A stretch of 64,000 bases of DNA from Mesorhizobium loti (GTDB lineage: Bacteria; Pseudomonadota; Alphaproteobacteria; Rhizobiales; Rhizobiaceae), in assembly GCA_014189435.1 (NCBI GenBank), contig CP050293.1, forward strand, positions 3,973,001 to 4,037,000, in the 5' to 3' direction. The number at the start of each line of letters is the position of its first letter. Position 1 is the stretch's first letter. Made by a program: the position numbers and the translations under genes. The notes under the pieces are model-generated. The model was not told the origin of the DNA. It was given only the letters and a program-made list of their open reading frames with translations, and made no database searches. Shown here in pieces: positions 37,887 to 49,371 of the stretch.

Positions 37887-39425
37887 ATGTCCGATTCGCC
37901 GATATTGTTCTTGCGCAATGTTGCCAGACGCTTTGGCGGCACGGTCGTGCTCGAAGACATGAACCTTGTGATCGAGCGCGGCTCGATCCACGCTGTGGTT
38001 GGCGAAAGCGGCGCCGGCAAATCGACGCTGATAAAGGTGCTGGCAGGCATCGTCCGGCCAGACAGCGGCACCATCGAGTTTGACGGCAAGAAGGCGACGA
38101 TCAGCAGCCCCAATGCGGCGCGAAAGCTCGGCATCGGCGTCGTCCTGCAGCAGGCGGGGCTGTTTCCGGAGCGCCCGGTGCTGGCCAATCTGTTCGTCAA
38201 CCGCGAACCGCTGCACAACGGGCTGATCTCGCGGCGCGAAATGGAGGCGCGCAGCCGTGACCTGCTGCGCCAGCTTGGTCTCGCCGTCAATGTCCACGCC
38301 CCGCTCGGCGAGTTCGGGCCGGGTGAGCGGCAACTCATCGCGATTGCCCGCGCGCTGCTGGAAAACCCGAGACTGCTCATCCTTGACGATCCTCATTCGG
38401 CGCTCGACCGGCGTCAGACCGAGCGGCTGTTCGCGGTGCTGCGGGGGCTGAAAGCCAAGGGCATGAGCATGCTCTACGCCTCGAACCGGCTGGAGGATGC
38501 GCTGGCCATTGCCGACCAGCTGACGGTCATCCGCAACGGCCGCGACGTGCTGTCAAAGGCGCGACAGGAGCTGACGACATCGGAGGAAGCGATGATCGGC
38601 CAGTTGCGCCAGTCGCTGTTTCCGCTGCCGCTCAGGGCCATGCCGACGCTTGCGGGCACGCTGCGGCCGCAGCTCGCGGTTTCTGGGCTCGGCGGCGGCA
38701 GGTTGTCGGATGTCAGCTTCACGGCGCGCGCGGGCGAGATCGTCGGCCTTGCCGGGCTTGCCGGCTCCGGCGTGTCGGACCTGCTTGCCCTGTTGTTCGG
38801 ACAGCACAAGGCGCGCGCGGGCAGAGTGCGCTTCCCGGACGGGGACGGGTTGCCGAAGACCCGCACGGAAGCGGCGCGGCGCGGCATCTGCATGATTTCA
38901 GGCGAGCGCGGCAACGGGCTGATGCAAGACAAGTCCATCGCTTTCAACCTGGCGAACGTCATCGTCGGTGCACGCGACTGGGGGTCGCTCTGGTATTCAC
39001 CAGTGATGGCGCTCGGCCGCGCCGCGCGGCAGATCGAGGCGCTGCGCATCAGGACCGCTCCGGAGACGGCGGCGGGCTCGCTGTCGGCCGGCGGCCAGCA
39101 GAAGGTGATCATCGCCAAATGGCTGGAAATCGGCCCGCAAGTGGTGCTGCTCGATGAGCCGGCGCGCGGCATCGATATCGGCAGCAAGCAGGAAATCTAC
39201 GCCTTGATCCGGCAGATGGCGGCCAGCGGCTGCATCGTGCTGCTGCATTCGAGAGAGTTGTCCGAGCTGACCGGGTTGAGCGATCGCATCCTTGCCTTCC
39301 ACCAGGGCCGACTCGCCGGCGAGATCGCCGGCGCCGACATGGATGGCGGGAGGCTGCTGCAGCTGATCGCGGCGGGCGAGGCAGAGGGCGAAGGCCGCCA
39401 GATCAAGCCGGAGAGCGTTGCATGA
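37887..39425 (+). CDS. Sugar ABC transporter ATP-binding protein, two domains (RbsA-like)
   Basis: The protein has 512 residues with two fused nucleotide-binding domains. Domain 1 has Walker A GESGAGKSTLIKVLAG, but a degenerate signature (FGPGERQLIAIARAL) and DDPHSALD, where the catalytic Glu is Asp. Domain 2 has the usual Lys-less P-loop (GLAGSGVSDLL), an intact signature LSAGGQQKVIIAKWL and VVLLDEPARGIDIG. The stop overlaps the permease start by ATGA. No binding protein precedes the pair. Confidence 0.92.
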   Translation: MSDSPILFLRNVARRFGGTVVLEDMNLVIERGSIHAVVGESGAGKSTLIKVLAGIVRPDSGTIEFDGKKATISSPNAARKLGIGVVLQQAGLFPERPVLANLFVNREPLHNGLISRREMEARSRDLLRQLGLAVNVHAPLGEFGPGERQLIAIARALLENPRLLILDDPHSALDRRQTERLFAVLRGLKAKGMSMLYASNRLEDALAIADQLTVIRNGRDVLSKARQELTTSEEAMIGQLRQSLFPLPLRAMPTLAGTLRPQLAVSGLGGGRLSDVSFTARAGEIVGLAGLAGSGVSDLLALLFGQHKARAGRVRFPDGDGLPKTRTEAARRGICMISGERGNGLMQDKSIAFNLANVIVGARDWGSLWYSPVMALGRAARQIEALRIRTAPETAAGSLSAGGQQKVIIAKWLEIGPQVVLLDEPARGIDIGSKQEIYALIRQMAASGCIVLLHSRELSELTGLSDRILAFHQGRLAGEIAGADMDGGRLLQLIAAGEAEGEGRQIKPESVA

Positions 39426-40456
39426 CCAGAACCGATACCGCACCGCCTTTGGCCGGATCGGCGAACCGTAAGCCGAGGCGCCGCATTCGGCTGCCGGCCG
39501 AGACCGGTGCCGTTGTCGGGCTCGCCGCCATGCTTGGGCTGCTCGGCTGGCTCCAGCCCTCCTTCGTCGATGCGGCCAATCTGTCGTCACTGCTGGGGCA
39601 AGCCGCCCTGCCCGGCCTGTTGGCGATCGGCATGGTGTTCGTGCTCACCATGCGCGAGATCGACCTCTCGGCCGCTGCGGTGTTCCATCTCGCGGCAACC
39701 TTCACGGCCCTGCTCGTGGTTGCCGGAATGAACCCCTGGCTTGCCGCCCTGGCGGGTGTCGCGGCCGGCGCCGGGCTCGGGCTGATCAACGGCCTTCTGG
39801 TGATCGCGCTGCGCCTGCCGGCTCTGCTGGTGACGCTCGGCACATGGTGGATGATCCAGGGCCTGTCGCTGGTCGTCGGCAAGGGAGAGACAATCGCGCC
39901 GCCGGGCGCGGATGGGAATGTCTTGGCCACGCTGTCGGGCAAGGCGTTTGTCATTGTGCCGGTGACAGGCATCGTCTTTGTCGTGCTGGCGGTGGCGATG
40001 CATGTCGTGCTTCACCGCACCCGCTTCGGCTACCGGGTCCAGGCCGTGGGCAGCAATCCGCGGGCTGCCGCCTATGCCGGCATTCCAACAGACAAGGTCA
40101 GGGTGCTGACGCTGGTGCTGATGGGTGCGATGGCCGGGCTTGCCGGCGTGGTCCATGTCGGCGCCCAGGGCGCCATCGCCCCCGGTGACGGCGGCACTTT
40201 CGGGCTGCTGGCGATCGCGGCGGCCATTATTGGCGGCACATCACTTTCGGGTGGCAACGGCAGCGTCATCGGTGCCGCGATCGGCATGCTGGTTCTGCAG
40301 ACAATACTGAGCGCCATGACCTTGCTTGGCGTGGACGCCATCTGGGCCGCCTTCACCACCGGTGCTCTGGTCGTGCTTGCCCTCGCGGTCGACCGGCTGT
40401 TCAGGCTGTGGCGCAACCGGCGCGCCGGACACGGTGAAGACAATCCGCTCGGCTGA
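39422..40456 (+). CDS. Sugar ABC transporter permease (RbsC-like)
   Basis: The protein has 344 residues with eight to ten helices and a 30-residue cytoplasmic N terminus rich in Arg and Lys. The family motif reads MREIDLSAAAVFHLA in place of EFDLSVG. The C-terminal part has GAIAPGDGGTFGLLAIAAAIIGGTSLSGG (given in part), typical of BPD_transp_2. It overlaps the RbsA-like gene. A 219-base gap with a small palindrome separates it from the next binding-protein gene. Confidence 0.92.
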   Translation: MTRTDTAPPLAGSANRKPRRRIRLPAETGAVVGLAAMLGLLGWLQPSFVDAANLSSLLGQAALPGLLAIGMVFVLTMREIDLSAAAVFHLAATFTALLVVAGMNPWLAALAGVAAGAGLGLINGLLVIALRLPALLVTLGTWWMIQGLSLVVGKGETIAPPGADGNVLATLSGKAFVIVPVTGIVFVVLAVAMHVVLHRTRFGYRVQAVGSNPRAAAYAGIPTDKVRVLTLVLMGAMAGLAGVVHVGAQGAIAPGDGGTFGLLAIAAAIIGGTSLSGGNGSVIGAAIGMLVLQTILSAMTLLGVDAIWAAFTTGALVVLALAVDRLFRLWRNRRAGHGEDNPLG

Positions 40457-40472
40457 GCCTCGACAACAATTA

Positions 40473-40485
40473 TCCGACAGTCGGA
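40473..40485. promoter_or_regulatory. Palindrome upstream of the second binding-protein gene
   Basis: TCCGAC-A-GTCGGA, a perfect 13-base dyad in an AT-rich stretch, lies about 190 bases before the next start. It could be an operator, for example of the LacI regulator at the end of the cluster. No second copy was found in the window. Confidence 0.3.
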
Positions 40486-40675
40486 AAATCAACTGAACTG
40501 ATGCGATCTGATGGGAGCGCTGATGGCGCCTCGTCAGACGACAACTACATCTGCAGATAGGAGGCTTGCCATCCGTCGGAAAAGGGAATGCTCTGACGCA
40601 TCCAACCGGCGCTGGCAAAAGACGCAGAACAAGGGACGGATTCAGAACTGACCATCTAAAAAGGGAGGAAATCAA

Positions 40676-41611
40676 ATGCTGACACGGCTAAGACTCGTTC
40701 TATATGGCCTGTTGGTGGCGCTGACGATTGTTCCGGCAGCGGCACAGGCCAAGACGTTCTACTGGATTTCGCATGGCGGTCCGGCCGATCCGGTCTGGAC
40801 CTACTTCCTGGCCGGCGCCAAGCAATGGGCCAAGGACACCGGCAACACCGTCAACACCTCGTTCCACAATGGCGATGTGGCCTCGCAGCAGGAAGCGGTT
40901 CGCGCCGCCCTCTCCGCCAAAGCCGATGGCATCGTCACCACGAGCCCCGATCCGGGCAGCTTGATCGAGATCGTCAAGGAAGCGCGGGCGGCGAAAGTGC
41001 CGATCATCAATTTCAACACGCCCGATCCGAAAGCCGACTTCAACGCCTATGTCGGCGGCGACAATGTCACCTTCGGCAAGCACTGGGCACAGTATCTGGT
41101 CGACAAGGGCCTGGTGAAGAAGGGCGACTTCGTCTGGATGCCGGTCGAGATTCCCGGCGCCACCTATGGCGTGCAGGAAGAAGAAGGCATCAAGAGCGTC
41201 TTCGAACCGCTCGGCATCACCTATGAAATCACCGAAGCGACGCTCGACCAGGCCGAAGCCATCAACCGCATGGTCGACTACCTCACTGCCAACAAGGCCA
41301 AGGTCAAGGCGATCATCGGTCTCGGCGATCTCGTCACCGGCTCGATCAAGCGGGTGTTCGACCAGGCCGGCATCAAGGCGGGCGAAATCCCGGTCGTCGG
41401 CTGGGGTAATTCGCTCGACACCACCCAGGAAGTGCTGACCGGCTACGTCAATGCCGGCCAGTGGCAGGATCCGCAGGCGACCAGCTATGTCGCGCTTTCG
41501 CTGGCCAACATGGCCGCCAGCGGCATTCCTCCGGGCTTCAACGTCATCACCGGCGCGCTCTACGAAAAGGACACCGCGCAGGTCTACGACGACATCCTGT
41601 CCGGCAAGTAA
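40676..41611 (+). CDS. Sugar ABC transporter substrate-binding protein (RbsB-like)
   Basis: The protein has 311 residues. The signal peptide is MLTRLRLVLYGLLVALTIVPAAAQA. The mature part begins KTFYWISHGGPADPVWTYFLAGAKQWA (given in part), and the ligand-site text AYVGGDNVTFGKHWAQYL is PBP type 1. A GGGAGG site lies 7 bases before the ATG. It is the only binding protein between two permease/ATPase sets, and a perfect hairpin follows the stop. Confidence 0.93.
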   Translation: MLTRLRLVLYGLLVALTIVPAAAQAKTFYWISHGGPADPVWTYFLAGAKQWAKDTGNTVNTSFHNGDVASQQEAVRAALSAKADGIVTTSPDPGSLIEIVKEARAAKVPIINFNTPDPKADFNAYVGGDNVTFGKHWAQYLVDKGLVKKGDFVWMPVEIPGATYGVQEEEGIKSVFEPLGITYEITEATLDQAEAINRMVDYLTANKAKVKAIIGLGDLVTGSIKRVFDQAGIKAGEIPVVGWGNSLDTTQEVLTGYVNAGQWQDPQATSYVALSLANMAASGIPPGFNVITGALYEKDTAQVYDDILSGK

Positions 41612-41626
41612 CATCCCAATCTCAAC

Positions 41627-41654
41627 AGTCGCGACCGCCCTGGCGGTCGCGACT
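41627..41654 (+). other. Intercistronic hairpin after the second binding-protein gene
   Basis: Perfect inverted repeat with arms AGTCGCGACCGCC and GGCGGTCGCGACT, 15 bases after the stop, with no T run. Same position and likely role as the hairpin at 33074-33101, but unrelated in sequence. Confidence 0.7.
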
Positions 41655-41728
41655 ACATCTCCATTTCGCCGAGCCCTTCGCACGCGAATGTGCAAGGCTC
41701 AGCCTTCCACTCATGTCGCGGATTGCCT

Positions 41729-42715
41729 GTGGAAAATCGTTCGCTCATCCAACGCCTGATCGCGCGGCCCGAGTTCGGCCCCTTCGTGCTGCTCGTGGTC
41801 GAGATCGCCGTTTTCTGGGGTTTCAATCACGACTTCCTGTCGCCGCAGAACATCTCCAACACGCTGGCCTTCACCGTCGAGCTCGGCCTGATCGCGCTGG
41901 CGATGACGCTGTTGATGACGTCGGGCGAATTCGACCTGTCCGTCGGTTCGCTGTTCGGTTTCTCGCCGGTGCTGATGTGGACGCTGTTCAACAGCGGCCT
42001 CACTTCGCTGGAGGTCGGCTTTGTCGCCGCGCTGCTGGTCGCCGCCTGCATCGGGCTGGTCAATGGCTGGTTCGTCACGCAGCTCAAGATCCCGTCCTTC
42101 CTGGTGACGCTCGGCATGTTGTTGGTGGTGCGCGGCACCGCGCTTTTCGTCACCGACGGTTTTCCGCAGCGCACCTGGAGCGCCGAAGGCAGCTGGCTGG
42201 CGGAGGCGCTGGTCGGCGACTTCTTCATCGGGCCATTCCGCATCTACATGTCGCTGTTCTGGTTTATCGCCGCGGCGATCGCGCTCGGCTACGTGCTGAC
42301 GCAGAGCCGCACCGGCAACTGGATCCAGGCGGCCGGCGGCAACCCCAGTGCGGCACGCGCCCGCGGCGTCAATGTCAGCGGCGTCAAGATAGGCCTGTTC
42401 GTGCTGTCGTCGGTCATGGCCTCGCTTGCCGGCGTCATCAGTTCCTTGCGCACGTCCGCCGCCAACCCCAACAGCGGCACGGGCTATGAACTCGAAGTCA
42501 TCGCCATGGTGGTGATCGGCGGCACCGCACTGACCGGCGGGCGCGGCACGATCATCGGCACCGTGCTCGGCATCCTGATCCTGCGCGTCATGCGCAACGG
42601 CATCGTGCTGATCGGCGTGCCCGGCCTTGCCTACAACATCTTCATCGGCGCGATCATCCTTGGCATGATGGCGCTGCATTCATGGCTTGAACGCCGGCAT
42701 CAGGCGGGGACTTGA
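41729..42715 (+). CDS. Sugar ABC transporter permease (RbsC/FrcC-like)
   Basis: The protein has about 328 residues from a GTG start (VENRSLIQRLIARPEFG). It shows the intact family motif TSGEFDLSVGSLFG and the C-terminal IAMVVIGGTALTGGRGTIIGT. It is the closest relative in the window of the frameshifted permease at 33131 and shows what that gene should look like. An ATG-type start at 41690 would add 13 untypical residues. Confidence 0.92.
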   Translation: MENRSLIQRLIARPEFGPFVLLVVEIAVFWGFNHDFLSPQNISNTLAFTVELGLIALAMTLLMTSGEFDLSVGSLFGFSPVLMWTLFNSGLTSLEVGFVAALLVAACIGLVNGWFVTQLKIPSFLVTLGMLLVVRGTALFVTDGFPQRTWSAEGSWLAEALVGDFFIGPFRIYMSLFWFIAAAIALGYVLTQSRTGNWIQAAGGNPSAARARGVNVSGVKIGLFVLSSVMASLAGVISSLRTSAANPNSGTGYELEVIAMVVIGGTALTGGRGTIIGTVLGILILRVMRNGIVLIGVPGLAYNIFIGAIILGMMALHSWLERRHQAGT

Positions 42716-42718
42716 ACC

Positions 42719-43510
42719 ATGGCCGAGCCGCTGATCCGCATGCAGAACATCCGCAAGTCCTATGGCCGCGTGCAGGCGCTGGAGGATGCCAATTTCCACG
42801 TCAATGAAAGGGAGATCGTCGGCCTGCTCGGCGACAATGGCGCCGGCAAGTCGACGCTGATCAAGGTGCTTTCGGGGGCTGTTCCGCTGACCAGCGGCGA
42901 CATCTTCATCCGCGGCAAGAAGGTGAGCCTGCGCAGCACCAGCGACGCCATCGCCCACGGCATCGAGACGATCTACCAGGACTCTGCCCTGGTCACGCAA
43001 CTGTCGATCGCCCGCAATCTGTTCCTCGGGCGCGAGCCGATCAAGCCGCCGCGCTTCCTCAACCGGATGGACCAGGATGCCATGAACACGGTCGCTCGCG
43101 ACCTGCTCAAGCAGGTCGGCATCTCGAAGAACATCCCGCCGACGACGCCGATCGGCTCGCTGTCGGGCGGCGAGCGCCAGGCGGTGGCGATCGCGCGCGC
43201 CATGCATTTCGACAGCGACCTGATCATCCTGGACGAGCCGACCAACAATCTCGGCGTCGCCGAGACACAGGGCGTGCTGAGCTTCGTGCGCAACGCCCGC
43301 GATTCCGGCCATTCCTGCATTTTCATCGCCCACAACATCCACCATGTCTTCCAGGTGGTCGACCGCATCGTCGTCATGCGCCGAGGCAAGGTGGTCGCCG
43401 ACGACATCGACCCGAAGAAAACCAGCGTGGCGGAGGTCGAACGGATCATCACCGGCATGTCGGACAAGGAAATCCGCGATGCCATCGCCGATGGCAAGCC
43501 ATCGCACTGA
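42719..43510 (+). CDS. Sugar ABC transporter ATP-binding protein, single domain (FrcA-like)
   Basis: The protein has 263 residues. It has Walker A GDNGAGKSTLIKVLSG, signature LSGGERQAVAIARAM, Walker B LIILDEPTNNLGV and H-loop FIAHNIHHV. It pairs with the permease three bases upstream. It is paralogous to the ATPase at 34113, so clusters 32.1-34.8 kb and 40.7-43.5 kb are two Frc-type importers (binding protein, permease, single ATPase). Confidence 0.93.
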   Translation: MAEPLIRMQNIRKSYGRVQALEDANFHVNEREIVGLLGDNGAGKSTLIKVLSGAVPLTSGDIFIRGKKVSLRSTSDAIAHGIETIYQDSALVTQLSIARNLFLGREPIKPPRFLNRMDQDAMNTVARDLLKQVGISKNIPPTTPIGSLSGGERQAVAIARAMHFDSDLIILDEPTNNLGVAETQGVLSFVRNARDSGHSCIFIAHNIHHVFQVVDRIVVMRRGKVVADDIDPKKTSVAEVERIITGMSDKEIRDAIADGKPSH

Positions 43511-43597
43511 CTGTCGGGTGATGGGCGGCAATCATCCGTCACCTCAAATCGCATCGCTCGTCTGGCGCGGCATTGCATCGGCGCATAGGGTTGCGGC

Positions 43598-43756
43598 ATG
43601 AAAGCCACCGTCTCGGATATCGCCCGCAATCGCGGGCCGTGGGTTGCGCCATGAAAGCCACTGTCTCCGATATCGCCCGCAATCGCGGGCCGTGGGTTGC
43701 GCCATGAAAGCCACTGTCTCCGATATCGCCCGCAATCGCGGGCCGTGGGTTGCGCC
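43598..43756 (+). repeat. Three tandem 53-bp copies of the LacI gene start
   Basis: Copies begin at ATG 43598, 43651 and 43704, and the true gene starts at 43757. Each copy carries ATGAAAGCCAC, the words TATCGCCCGC, a GCCCGC-AATC-GCGGGC hairpin and TTGCGCC. Because 53 is not a multiple of three, each copy is an 18-codon ORF (MKATVSDIARNRGPWVAP) whose TGA overlaps the next ATG (ATGA). Copy 1 differs from copies 2 and 3 at three bases. Confidence 0.92.
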
Positions 43757-44779
43757 ATGAAAGCCACTGTCTCCGATATCGCCCGCAGTTGCGGGCTGTC
43801 GACCGCAACGGTCGACAGGGTGCTCAACAACCGCGCGGGTGCGAGCGCGGCCAACCGGCAGCGTGTCATGGAGGCGGCCAAGCAGCTCGGCTACCTGCCG
43901 GTCGCCGATCAGGTGACGCTGCCGTCGCGGCCCGCCCATCTCGAATTCCTGCTGCCGATCGGCAGCAACGCCTTCATGCGCGATCTCGCCGGGTATATCG
44001 AGGACTACGCCGCGCGCCTGCCGCTCGTCGCCTCGTGCCGGATCCACAACCTTGCCGGAATCTCGCCGAGCGCGCTGCAGAGCGCGGTCGAAAACCTGTC
44101 GCTCAGGGCCAATGGTGTCGGTGTCATCGCCGTCGATCATCCGCGCACACGCAACATCCTGCGCGATATCGTCGACGCCGGCATGCGCCTGGTGACGCTG
44201 GTGTCCGACGTTCCGGCGGCACCGCGCTCGGCCTATGTCGGCATCGACAACCGGGTGGCGGGACGAACGGCGGCGCTGCTGATGGGACGCTTCCTTGGCG
44301 GCCGAACTGGTCATCTGGCGATGGTCGTCGGCTCGCGCTCTTATCGCGGCCACGAGGAACGCGAAATGGGTTTCCGCTCGGTGCTCAACGAGGAGTTCCC
44401 CAATTTGACGATCAGCAGCGCCGTCGAGATCAACGACGAGCCCGATGTCAGCTATGCCGAGACCATGAAGACGCTGCACAACGAGCCGGAGCTGCTCGGC
44501 ATCTATTGCGTCGGAGCCGGACACTCGGGCGTTGCAAGGGCGATCCGGGAAGCCAGGCCGAACCGCAAGCCGGTGTTCATCTGCCACGACTTGACCAAGG
44601 ACACGCGGGGCCACCTCGTCGACGACCTGCTGGATGTCGTGATCGACCAGAATGCCCGGCTGATCGCGGAACAGTCGGTCATTCGCCTGCTCGGCTCGAT
44701 TGCCTCCTCGGCGCCCTATCTGACGCGAAAGTTCATCGAGCCGCGCTTGATCTTCAGGGAAAACGTCCCAGTGCAGTAA
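43757..44779 (+). CDS. LacI-family transcriptional regulator
   Basis: The protein has 340 residues. The DNA-binding headpiece reads MKATVSDIARSCGLSTATVDRVLNNRAG (given in part), followed by a PBP-like effector domain with VGIDNRVAGRTAALLMGRFLGG (given in part). It lies 246 bases after the importer operon on the same strand and probably responds to that sugar. Its start is preceded by three out-of-frame copies of its own first codons, so translation may depend on coupling through them. I see no independent Shine-Dalgarno site just before 43757. Confidence 0.9.
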   Translation: MKATVSDIARSCGLSTATVDRVLNNRAGASAANRQRVMEAAKQLGYLPVADQVTLPSRPAHLEFLLPIGSNAFMRDLAGYIEDYAARLPLVASCRIHNLAGISPSALQSAVENLSLRANGVGVIAVDHPRTRNILRDIVDAGMRLVTLVSDVPAAPRSAYVGIDNRVAGRTAALLMGRFLGGRTGHLAMVVGSRSYRGHEEREMGFRSVLNEEFPNLTISSAVEINDEPDVSYAETMKTLHNEPELLGIYCVGAGHSGVARAIREARPNRKPVFICHDLTKDTRGHLVDDLLDVVIDQNARLIAEQSVIRLLGSIASSAPYLTRKFIEPRLIFRENVPVQ

Positions 44780-45113: not shown

Positions 45114-45705
45114 TCAACCGGCAGCGGTGCCCCGGAAGGAAACGATCAGCCCTTCGGCCATGCGCACGAACTGCGTGCTCGGACCTTCGGCACCCACGGT
45201 CTGCACACTGACACGCGCGCCCTCGAACAACAGCGACAGCGTATCGGCGAGCAGCTCGGCCTGACCAATGCCGGCATCTCGACATAGCGTCACAAGGCGC
45301 TGGCGCTGGACTTCCTTGAGCTCCTTGATCACCAGCCTGGCCGGATGGTCGGGCTCGGTCAGCTCAGCGGCGGCATTGGCCATGTCACAGCCACGGCCGT
45401 CAGCATTGAGCATGGCAGCCGCCTTGCGAACCCAGGCGTGCAGCTGTGCAAGCTTGTCACCAGGAAATTCGGCCTCGAATGCATCCCACATGGCGCCGGC
45501 CTTGGCCGCATTGGCGCGCAGGCATTCGATGATCAGCTCGTCCTTGGATCTCGAAGTGACGATACAGCGTCATCTTGTTCGTGCCGGCAGCTTCGGTGAT
45601 AGCGTCGACGCCGACGCCCTTGATGCCATGCTTGTGGAACATGTCACGCGCCGTCTCCAGGATTCGATCCCGGGGACGTGAGCGCTCCACGACGCCGTCT
45701 GTCAT
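45114..45705 (-). pseudogene. TetR-family regulator, frameshifted
   Basis: The first frame, from ATG 45705 with AAGGAG upstream, has the TetR DNA-binding domain (ILETARDMFHKHGIKGVGVD, then AAGTNKMTLYRHFE). The second frame, ending at 45114, gives the ligand domain (MWDAFEAEFPGDKLAQLHAWV and onward). Removing one base at about 45549 restores the expected TLYRHFESKDELIIECL. Joined length is about 196 residues. It diverges from the RND pump operon and probably represses it through the tandem GTTAC-N6-GTAAC sites. Error or mutation cannot be told apart. Confidence 0.85.
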
Positions 45706-45744
45706 CATGATCTCCTTTCGTTTCCTAAAAACCACGGCCACCTC

Positions 45745-45949: not shown

Positions 45950-46201
45950 ATGCCACAGCGCCGCGATCTTACCATAGATGAGGCCGTCCGGGATCCGATG
46001 ATCCGGCTGGTCATGAAAGCAGATGGGGTCGACCCCCGCGCTTTCGAGAAGATGCTTCGCTCGCTTGCCGATGAGCAGCGTGGCGAGGTGCCGTTGCTGC
46101 GGTCACGGGAAGCCTCCCGTGACGGGCACGGCCAGTTGTCCAGGGTTGCCAGCGCCTTCGGGCGGGCAAGAGCAGCCGGGGAGGCTTGCGTCTCGTGGTA
46201 A
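45950..46201 (+). CDS. Small hypothetical protein coupled to the RND pump gene
   Basis: The protein has 83 residues from ATG 45950, with AAGGAG 8 bases upstream. The first half (DLTIDEAVRDPMIRLVMKAD, then DPRAFEKMLRSLADEQ) looks like a compact helical, conserved soluble protein. The second half is Arg/Ala-rich and less convincing. No family is recognised. Its stop overlaps the probable GTG start of the pump gene by 7 bases, so translation is likely coupled. It carries no signal or membrane segment. Confidence 0.6.
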   Translation: MPQRRDLTIDEAVRDPMIRLVMKADGVDPRAFEKMLRSLADEQRGEVPLLRSREASRDGHGQLSRVASAFGRARAAGEACVSW

Positions 46202-49200
46202 ACTTCTTCATCCACCGTCCGATCTTCGCCTCGGCGATCGCCATCATCATGGTGCTCGCCGGGACGATTTGTTATTTCCTGCTTCCCGTCTCGCAGTTTC
46301 CCGATATCACACCGCCGCAGGTCGTGGTCAGCGCCCATTATCCGGGCGCCAGCGCGCAAGTGGTGGCCGACACGGTGACGACACCGCTGGAGCAGCAGAT
46401 CAACGGCGTGCAGGGCATGACCTACATGTCGTCGACGAGCTCCAATGACGGCTCCTCGACCATCACCATCACCTTCGATGTCGGTTATTCGCTGAGCACC
46501 GCTGCCGTCGACGTCCAGAACCGCGTCTCGCAGGCGGCCTCGTCGCTGCCGGCGATCGTCAACCAGGGCGGCGTGACGATCAAGAAGCAGAACCCGAATT
46601 TCGTCCTCATCGTCAACCTGACCTCACCCGACAGTTCGGTCGATCCGGTGGCGCTGAGCAACCTTGCCTATCTGCAGGTGGTCGATCCGCTGAAGCGCCT
46701 GCCCGGCGTCGGCGACGTGCAGATCTTCGGCGAGCGGCGCTATTCGATGCGCGTCTGGCTCGATCCCGACAAGCTCGCCAATCTCGGCATCACCGCGGTC
46801 GACGTGCAAAACGCCATCGCCGAGCAGAACGTCCAGGTGGCGGCCGGCAAGATCGGCCAATCGCCGGCACCGGCCGGCACCGCCTTCGAGATGCAGGTCA
46901 ACGCCGTCGGCCGGTTAAGCGACCCGAAGGAATTCGGCGATATCGTCGTGCGCGCCAACACGGACACCGGCTCGCTGGTCAGGCTGCGCGACGTCGCCCG
47001 CATCGAGCTCGGCGCGCTGCAATATTCATCGTCGGCCTTCTTCGGCAAAGACCCGACCGTGGTGCTTGCCGTCTACCAGATGCCCGGCTCCAACGCGCTC
47101 GATCTTCAGCAGCGCGTCAAGGACAAGATGCAGGAGCTTTCGGGCCGTTTCCCGAAGGGCGTCGCCTATGCGATGCACTACGACACCACCCGCTTCGTCT
47201 CGGCGTCGATGCATGACGTGCTGATCACACTCGGCGAAGCGCTGGTGCTGGTCGTCGCCGTGGTGTTCATCTTCCTGCAGAGCTGGCGCACCACGATCAT
47301 CCCGACCATTGCCATTCCAGTGTCGCTGGTGGCGACACTGGTGGTCATGGAGATGCTCGGCTTCTCGCTCAACATGCTCTCCCTGCTCGGCATGGTGCTG
47401 GCCATCGGCCTCGTCGTCGACGACGCCATCGTCGTGGTCGAGAATGTCGAACGACAGCTAGAGGCCGGACTCAAGCCGCTTGCGGCGACCAAGGCCGCGA
47501 TGGGCGAGGTCACCGGTCCGATCATCGCCACCACCGCCGTGCTGATGGCGGTGTTCGTGCCGGTCGCTTTCATTCCCGGCGTCTCCGGCAAGCTCTACAA
47601 TCAGTTCGCGCTGACGGTGGCGATTTCCGTCGGCATCTCCGCCTTCAACTCATTGACGCTGAGTCCCGCGCTCAGCGCCGCCTTCCTGCGGCATCGCGGA
47701 GAGACGCAGTTCGCCCCGTTCCGCTGGTTCAACACCGGCTTCGACAAGCTGTCACACGCCTATGCCAATGGCGTGCGCATCCTCATCCGCTTGCGCTGGA
47801 TCATGCTCGGGCTGTTCGCGGCCGGACTGGTCGCCACCTACTTCGTCTGGCAGCGCCTGCCTTCGACCTTCCTTCCGGTCGAGGACCAGGGCTATTTCTT
47901 CGTTGTCATCCAGTTGCCCGACGGCGCGTCGCTGGAACGCACCGACGCGGTGGCGCAGAAGGCGCGCGACATCCTTCAGGCAACGCCCGGCGTCGACATT
48001 GTCGGCTCGATCAGCGGCTTGAACTTCCTGACCAGTGCCGCGCAATCGAATTCGGCGGTCGAATTCGCCATCCTGAAGCCATGGGAGGAACGCGGCCCCG
48101 ACCAGAGTGCCTCGAAGCTCGTCTCCGACGTGCGCGGCAAGCTGATGCAGATTCCGGAAGCCTTTGCGCTGAGCTTCGATCCGCCGTCGATCCCTGGCAT
48201 CGGCACCACGGGCGGCTTCGAATTCGTCGTCGAGGATCTCACCGGTCGCGGCAGTTCAGCCCTCAACGATGCGACGCAAGCCGTGATCGCCGAGGCGCGC
48301 AAGCAGCCGGAGATCAATCCGCAGCAGCTGTTCTCGCCATTCTCGACCTCGACGCCGCAGTTCAACTACGACCTCGACCGCAGCAAGGCAAAACTGCTTG
48401 GCCTCAACCTGCCTGACGTCTTCAGCACGCTGCAGATCTATCTCGGCTCGCTCTACGTCAACGACTTCAACCTGTTTGGCCGCACCTTCCGGGTGACCAT
48501 CCAGGCCGACAAGGATGCACGTGCGGGTGCCGCCGACATTTCGCGGCTCTATGTGCGCAATGCCTCCGGCGGCATGGTGCCGCTCTCGACGCTGGGCAAG
48601 CTCGTGCCCTTCGTCGGGCCGGAGACAGTGCCGCACTACAACAACAACGCCTCGGCCTCGATCAATGGCGGCGCCGCACCCGGCTTCTCCTCGGGCCAGG
48701 CGGTTGCCGCGATGGAACGAGCCGCTGCCACGGCGCTACCCAGGGATTTCGGTTTCGAATGGACCGGCATCACCTTCCAGGAGCTCAAGGCAGGATCGAT
48801 CGCGTCCGTCGTCTTCGGCCTCGCCATCGTCTTCGTCTTCCTGATCCTGGCGATGCAGTATGAGAGCTGGGCGATGCCGTTCATGGTGCTGCTGGCGGTG
48901 CCACTGGCCTTGTTCGGCGCCTTCGCGGCTTTGTTGCTGCGCGGCATGCAGATCGACGTCTACTCGCAGATCGGCTTCGTCATGCTGATCGGCCTGGCGG
49001 CGAAGAACGCGATCCTGATCGTCGAGTTCGCCCGGCGACGGCGCGAAGAAGGCCTCAGTATCGTCGACGCGGCGATGGAAGCGGCACGGCTCAGGCTGCG
49101 GCCGATCCTGATGACGGCCTTCGCCTTCATCCTCGGCGTGCTGCCGCTGATGTTTGCAACCGGCGCCGGTGCGGCGAGCCGTCAGTCGATCGGCACCACC

Positions 49201-49371
49201 GTGTTCGGCGGCATGGTCGCGGCGACCATCCTGTCGCTGGTGTTCGTGCCGGTCTTCTACGCGGTCATCGAACAGCTGCGCGAACGGCGCGGCCATGACG
49301 AGCCGGCCTCTCAAGACAATGAACCAACGACTAAGCCCGCCTTCCCGCCTCTGGCGGAAGCGGCTGAATAG
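46195..49371 (+). CDS. RND efflux pump inner-membrane transporter (HAE1/AcrB type)
   Basis: Proton-driven multidrug exporter of 1058 residues with twelve helices and two large periplasmic loops. The N terminus VNFFIHRPIFASAIAIIMVL, the region-D text MVLAIGLVVDDAIVVVENVER with the proton-relay Asp pair, and QIGFVMLIGLAAKNAILIVEF are diagnostic. I prefer the GTG at 46195 (GGGGAGG about 10 bases upstream) over a TTG at 46186. The pump gene precedes its membrane-fusion gene, the reverse of acrAB. No TolC-like outer-membrane gene is nearby. Confidence 0.95.
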   Translation: MVNFFIHRPIFASAIAIIMVLAGTICYFLLPVSQFPDITPPQVVVSAHYPGASAQVVADTVTTPLEQQINGVQGMTYMSSTSSNDGSSTITITFDVGYSLSTAAVDVQNRVSQAASSLPAIVNQGGVTIKKQNPNFVLIVNLTSPDSSVDPVALSNLAYLQVVDPLKRLPGVGDVQIFGERRYSMRVWLDPDKLANLGITAVDVQNAIAEQNVQVAAGKIGQSPAPAGTAFEMQVNAVGRLSDPKEFGDIVVRANTDTGSLVRLRDVARIELGALQYSSSAFFGKDPTVVLAVYQMPGSNALDLQQRVKDKMQELSGRFPKGVAYAMHYDTTRFVSASMHDVLITLGEALVLVVAVVFIFLQSWRTTIIPTIAIPVSLVATLVVMEMLGFSLNMLSLLGMVLAIGLVVDDAIVVVENVERQLEAGLKPLAATKAAMGEVTGPIIATTAVLMAVFVPVAFIPGVSGKLYNQFALTVAISVGISAFNSLTLSPALSAAFLRHRGETQFAPFRWFNTGFDKLSHAYANGVRILIRLRWIMLGLFAAGLVATYFVWQRLPSTFLPVEDQGYFFVVIQLPDGASLERTDAVAQKARDILQATPGVDIVGSISGLNFLTSAAQSNSAVEFAILKPWEERGPDQSASKLVSDVRGKLMQIPEAFALSFDPPSIPGIGTTGGFEFVVEDLTGRGSSALNDATQAVIAEARKQPEINPQQLFSPFSTSTPQFNYDLDRSKAKLLGLNLPDVFSTLQIYLGSLYVNDFNLFGRTFRVTIQADKDARAGAADISRLYVRNASGGMVPLSTLGKLVPFVGPETVPHYNNNASASINGGAAPGFSSGQAVAAMERAAATALPRDFGFEWTGITFQELKAGSIASVVFGLAIVFVFLILAMQYESWAMPFMVLLAVPLALFGAFAALLLRGMQIDVYSQIGFVMLIGLAAKNAILIVEFARRRREEGLSIVDAAMEAARLRLRPILMTAFAFILGVLPLMFATGAGAASRQSIGTTVFGGMVAATILSLVFVPVFYAVIEQLRERRGHDEPASQDNEPTTKPAFPPLAEAAE

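Follow-up and report, generated by a model that had tools for sequence, protein, structure and literature searches.

Bacterial minisatellites (VNTRs) and contingency loci are built of tandem units that differ in number between relatives. The array described here, which lies directly before a gene of the LacI family in a 64,000-nucleotide stretch of Mesorhizobium loti DNA (the window, meaning the whole stretch that was analyzed), has this property in common with them. It differs from the usual VNTR or contingency locus in that its unit spans the start codon out of frame, every copy having its own start and stop, and from contingency loci in that its variation is known between species, with one genome per species.

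With respect to translation, the closest described arrangement is termination-reinitiation coupling (PMC6728339, PMC12548453), in which a stop codon overlaps the following start codon as ATGA on the same strand, as happens in the array. In one of these reports, 13 of 14 tests of ATGA or TGATG pairs gave strict coupling (PMC6728339). By comparison with the couplings described there, the upstream ORFs of the array are not genes in themselves but repeat the beginning of the downstream gene, and species differ in how many they have. A second relative is the class of E. coli mRNAs with 5'-terminal upstream AUGs, which are translatable and can alter downstream expression (PMC4965119). If our reading of the lacI promoter holds, the array transcripts would present the same order, namely an AUG at the 5' end, a short ORF and then the gene; in contrast to what is described for E. 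coli, they would contain the start of the gene itself in a chain of one to three copies, the number varying, and their Shine-Dalgarno (SD)-like sites are weak in most copies. Finally, 171 leaderless mRNAs, all starting with AUG, are listed for Sinorhizobium meliloti (PMC3616915). Like these alphaproteobacterial transcripts, lacI has an AUG start, no SD sequence and a promoter-like block adjoining the ATG; unlike them, the later starts of the array would not be leaderless, and a leaderless lacI mRNA is a prediction from the sequence.

In the titles and abstract openings of the open-licence papers searched, we found no description of such a start-spanning array. We liken it to coupled upstream ORFs placed on a VNTR, and the comparisons below make a tolerated minisatellite with a mild tuning effect the most likely reading, a true length-dependent attenuator being possible.

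The 53-bp array and its surroundings

An earlier note on this DNA had described the start of lacI as preceded by three out-of-frame 53-bp copies of itself, and both direct reading of the sequence and Tandem Repeats Finder bear this out (Table 1). The unit consists of the 10 bases 5' of the gene and its first 43 bases, and extra starts at 43598, 43651 and 43704 precede the true LacI ATG (43757). With its head-to-tail units of high identity (96% matches), the array has the form of a minisatellite, and it scores highest of the six Tandem Repeats Finder rows in the window (383, the runner-up having 70). The length of the unit (53 bp, 2 mod 3) and the ATGA with which the gene begins make each copy an ORF of 18 codons closing on the next ATG. 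Every extra ORF reads MKATVSDIARNRGPWVAP, its first ten residues being the same as those of LacI; the 18-residue ORFs with a TGA overlapping the next ATG are thus as the note had stated.

Table 1. Positions of the lacI locus features within the window
Feature	Position	Strand	Remarks
ABC permease (PF02653)	39422..40456	+	
ABC substrate-binding protein (PF13407)	40676..41611	+	
ABC permease (PF02653)	41690..42715	+	
Sugar-type ABC transporter ATPase	42719..43510	+	upstream of lacI
Putative -35-like element, CTGGC	43562..43566	+	without match in the stricter consensus scan
Putative -10-like element, CATAGG	43584..43589	+	8 nt before the first ATG
53-bp tandem array including the lacI start	43588..43796	+	Tandem Repeats Finder: period 53, 3.9 copies, 96% matches, score 383
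Micro-ORF 1	43598..43654	+	18 codons; TGA overlaps next ATG as ATGA
GCCCGC-N4-GCGGGC inverted repeat, copy 1	43622..43637	.	again at 43675-43690, 43728-43743, 43781-43796
Micro-ORF 2	43651..43707	+	18 codons; TGA overlaps next ATG as ATGA
Micro-ORF 3	43704..43760	+	18 codons; TGA overlaps LacI ATG as ATGA
LacI-family regulator, 340 aa	43757..44779	+	PF00356 E 1.4e-12; PF13407 E 1.5e-35
Palindrome CTGTCGACC...GGTCGACAG in lacI	43796..43818	.	end of the 53-bp unit falls within the first arm

Short-read assemblies can get tandem repeats wrong, and an array produced by assembly was considered. Nine further Mesorhizobium genomes have arrays of the same unit, each with sequence differences of its own, and one of these arrays is on a record titled 'complete sequence' (NC_014923.1). 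This makes an assembly error very unlikely; in view of ten genomes with differing copy numbers and copy-specific substitutions, we rule out an artefact, whose probability appears negligible. The source assembly comprises 8.33 Mb in three contigs, the window being on contig C1, and the array is found at a single locus of this genome, the sole other match (53 bases, 83% identity) lying inside a paralogous lacI gene.

Each unit of the window carries one perfect inverted repeat, GCCCGC-N4-GCGGGC. This palindrome could be imagined as an operator, in which case the array would add binding sites, perhaps for LacI itself. It is made of codons, however, and only six of the 10 array genomes and four of the 100 single-copy genomes have it in their gene copy; it is therefore not a required part, and we rejected the operator, which we hold to be very improbable, for want of conservation. 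The earlier proposal of one such hairpin per copy is right for the units of the window and fails as a conserved part of the array.

Pfam recognizes in LacI both the LacI helix-turn-helix and a periplasmic-binding-type domain, which places it in the LacI family. Genes for a sugar-type ABC importer (39422-43510) precede lacI on the same strand. At its cut-offs, NCBIfam gave no name to any of the five proteins (the four importer proteins and LacI); the best NCBIfam match of the substrate-binding protein, to a rhizopine binding protein, falls well short of the cut-off (61 versus 420 bits). Elsewhere in the window (45114-45741, minus strand, and 46186-49371, plus strand), an ORF with a TetR-type N-terminal domain (PF00440) is found near an AcrB-family (PF00873) transporter gene, and it is overlapped in another frame by an ORF that has no Pfam match. 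The TetR-type regulator beside the AcrB-family gene may be frameshifted.

Copy number and history in Mesorhizobium

Orthologous starts were pooled from protein searches (61 genomes and 27 further entries), a scan of named species genomes of which the best 80 loci were kept, fetched regions, and a pattern search covering 146 Mesorhizobium genomes. The counts of this last search rest on the matches listed, only some of its genomes were fetched, and it can overlook decayed copies, G030 being a case in point. Altogether 178 loci were collected: 172 had a usable start, four had no match, and two (L106 and L178) were left out because the gene was cut by a contig end or its start was missing. They gave 116 distinct starts, of which the 110 with at least 80% protein identity constitute the orthologue set.

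An array is present in 10 of these 110 starts. Six have two copies (L004, L041, L005, L043, L006 and L044), three have three copies (L143, L040 and L045), and only the window has four. Complete copies are spaced by 53 bases in 14 of 15 cases and by 51 in one (L143); for the extra copy of L004, the position of -52 given by the script was set by hand to -53, where its ATG lies. In the 548,091 bases of the best 80 loci, the only tandem arrays with a period of at least 20 and a score of at least 90 are eight, all at the lacI start.

All ten arrays fall within one clade of 12 in a 42-row tree built without the repeat (support 96/79), and a single old duplication followed by later gains and losses therefore fits their distribution best. 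Since two single-copy members, L033 and L042, sit inside the clade, so that the array is kept in 10 of the 12, the simplest history would comprise one duplication, two reversions to a single copy and several expansions. The copy-number change foreseen in the earlier note is thus found between species, with one, two, three and four copies in the clade, as in a VNTR. Inheritance of the array through a species split is indicated by a variant, GGCTATTGCC, which is common to the upstream copies of L045 and L004 and absent from their gene copies, which read GGATATCGCC. A junction edge of the CTGT|GGG type is also common to the arrays.

Copies within an array do not evolve in complete isolation: four changes found in an extra copy recur in the gene copy of the same array, which suggests sequence exchange within arrays. 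In the window, copies 2 and 3 are identical and both carry two changes also found in the gene copy, which argues for recent exchange. Other arrays are irregular, one extra copy having lost its ATG (L045) and another containing two indels (L004). In L044, a 14-base remnant with ATG at its beginning and, still, ATGA at its end stands 5' of the full extra copy, whose sequence is almost that of the gene copy (1/43 differences).

How could the unit have been duplicated? The palindrome at its 3' edge is a plausible cause of slippage: the corresponding stretch of lacI folds at -9 kcal/mol or below in 100 of the 110 orthologues, and a polymerase that paused there and slipped back would leave a 53-bp duplication. 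The duplication of the gene start would most likely have happened once, in the ancestor of the 12-species clade, slippage at the foot of the palindrome being probable. The locus would then have behaved as a minisatellite; the distribution of one to four copies is observed, while slippage and the single origin are inferred. As for RNA folding, the four-copy leader has a z of -1.78, and the last unit with the lacI start, downstream palindrome included, a z of -3.72.

Slippage might also be frequent enough to vary copy number within populations, thereby setting the level of LacI and creating heritable diversity in sugar uptake. Such a contingency switch would account for the one to four copies among close relatives, including two genomes titled M. 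ciceri that have one (L042) and two copies (L043), and for the recent exchange in the window. However, the copies of several arrays have diverged enough to slow slippage, and the codon positions and drift simulation presented below give no sign of selection on the chain; we consider a switch of this kind improbable.

Constraint on LacI and on the micro-ORFs

The LacI frame is open in 10 of 10 array genomes, and its dN/dS (0.063 in array genomes versus 0.046 and 0.055 in the single-copy groups) indicates that LacI is under purifying selection. Over the first 51 codons, the ratio is 0.062 in array genomes versus 0.011 and 0.031 in the single-copy groups, a hint, with few changes behind the figures, of slightly weaker constraint on the lacI start in array strains.

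The micro-ORFs present a different picture. Private coding changes in the extra copies (n = 27, excluding arrays L004 and L044 and changes in common with the gene copy) are spread 8:9:10 over the three codon positions, and 18 of the 27 are nonsynonymous. Given this even spread, selection on the micro-ORF peptide is not supported. Pairwise distances of the 5'-most copy are 0.051, 0.068 and 0.205 at positions 1 to 3 (nine arrays, L004 left out), but L044, in which extra copy and gene copy are almost the same (1/43 differences), is among the arrays behind this third-position excess.

The chain of ATGA overlaps leading into the true start, also part of the earlier description, is correct in its anatomy. 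Followed from the first ATG, it is intact in nine of ten arrays, and in all ten when restarts within 12 bases, and with them the stop of L045 at -7..-5 relative to the LacI ATG, are allowed. A drift simulation treating the copies as independent gave P 0.015 for intact chains. When the window's three copies were counted as one diverged unit, the probability that all ten are intact was 0.036, 0.035 and 0.068 at tolerances of 1, 6 and 12 nt, under a restart rule framed with the arrays already in view. Only nine of ten chains are intact at 1 and 6 nt, so that 0.036 and 0.035 overstate the case for selection; the drift probability of nine or more intact chains at 1 nt, worked out from the simulation figures, is about 0.2. 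Among the ten arrays, start, stop and peptide therefore lack the conservation beyond drift of a selected regulatory upstream ORF (8:9:10, P 0.068). The intact chains are compatible with drift, and selection on the coupled ORFs is without support in these comparisons.

These results raise the question of whether the array has any effect. It could be a neutral minisatellite, with LacI initiated directly at its own ATG, aided by a weak junction site of the GTGGG type, and with micro-ORFs that arise incidentally because a gene starting with ATGA was duplicated over a length of 2 mod 3. The even codon positions and frequent nonsynonymous changes agree with this, as do the irregular arrays (the lost ATG of L045, the indels of L004, the 51-base spacing of L143, the 14-nt remnant of L044), the chance of an intact chain by drift, which is not small, and SD-like energies of about -4.5 at the junctions of several copies. 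On the other hand, perfect direct repeats are expected to disappear by slippage, and yet the array is kept in 10 of the 12 clade members; moreover, even the irregular arrays end at or near the LacI ATG. We regard neutrality as a credible alternative, somewhat short of an even chance. If it is correct, a tandem repeat over a start codon can persist through several species splits and leave the gene undamaged.

Promoter-like block and proposed translation through the copies

Conservation 5' of the first ATG is limited to about the last 40 bases. This block fits a -35-like [CT]TG[AG]C motif and a -10-like element ending approximately 8 bases 5' of the ATG, a pattern in place at 65 of the 110 starts; 200 shuffles, which ignore relatedness, gave 0.2 on average and 2 at most. 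The other 45 orthologues fail even this looser pattern; the -35 is lost in array strain L005, the -10 of L018 is too near the ATG, and the starts of L010 and L155 directly follow an upstream stop codon. A stricter sigma-70 consensus scan found no promoter upstream of lacI, and a consensus scan for a better promoter inside the array was likewise negative; the -10 region of sigma-70 promoters in S. meliloti is described as poorly conserved. An SD-like site of -4.4 kcal/mol or below precedes the first ATG in nine of 110 orthologues; among ORFs of the window, with the first ATG of each long ORF simply taken as its start, the figure is 21 of 38. The promoter-like block near the ATG, together with the weak SD-like pairing, suggests that the lacI mRNA is leaderless.

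Transcription of the single-copy gene would then proceed from a promoter ending about 8 nt 5' of the ATG and yield a leaderless mRNA. Array strains would have an mRNA whose 5' end is the ATG of copy 1; ribosomes would start there and reach LacI mainly by termination-reinitiation over one to three ATGA steps, each copy lowering LacI output by one step. The anatomy agrees with coupling, in that the upstream stop overlaps the downstream start or adjoins it (TAG at -7..-5 in L045). Re-initiation without an SD sequence is possible but inefficient in E. coli reporters (PMC2268962), and LacI output should therefore drop with each copy. SD-like sites at the later starts are somewhat better (-3.1 to -9.3 kcal/mol among the seven of ten arrays listed), so that re-initiation, or direct initiation at LacI, is possible.

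The joint explanation that suits these data best, and to which we lend about even credence, combines a slippage minisatellite of single origin, a leaderless mRNA and reinitiation at ATGA, in an array that would be tolerated and mildly tuning rather than an evolved switch. A bolder version, in which the chain of gene-start copies would attenuate a leaderless regulator gene step by step, slippage setting the LacI level, and hence sugar uptake, in discrete steps, seems to us rather unlikely. If the chain does work as proposed, it would represent a very simple route to a tunable gene, which need only begin with ATGA and have its own start duplicated over a length of 2 mod 3. It would also offer a natural series of one, two, three and four copies for gauging how much protein is left after each reinitiation without a strong ribosome-binding site.

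Several orthologues show further peculiarities around the start. Six (L015, L017, L053, L055, L070 and L117) have in common a stretch like CCACTTTTCGGGATCATG directly 5' of the -10-like block, which gives the impression that the promoter's upstream half was replaced by a dispersed repeat. Four single-copy genomes outside the clade (L021, L067, L069 and L009) have an unrelated upstream ATG in the last 15 bases before lacI, which is out of frame and reads into the ATGA that opens lacI; if the promoter is placed correctly, this ATG would be left out of the transcript. Finally, a T to G change in the last extra copy of L040 creates a GGGGG junction directly before the LacI ATG, the strongest SD-like site among the starts listed (-9.3 kcal/mol).
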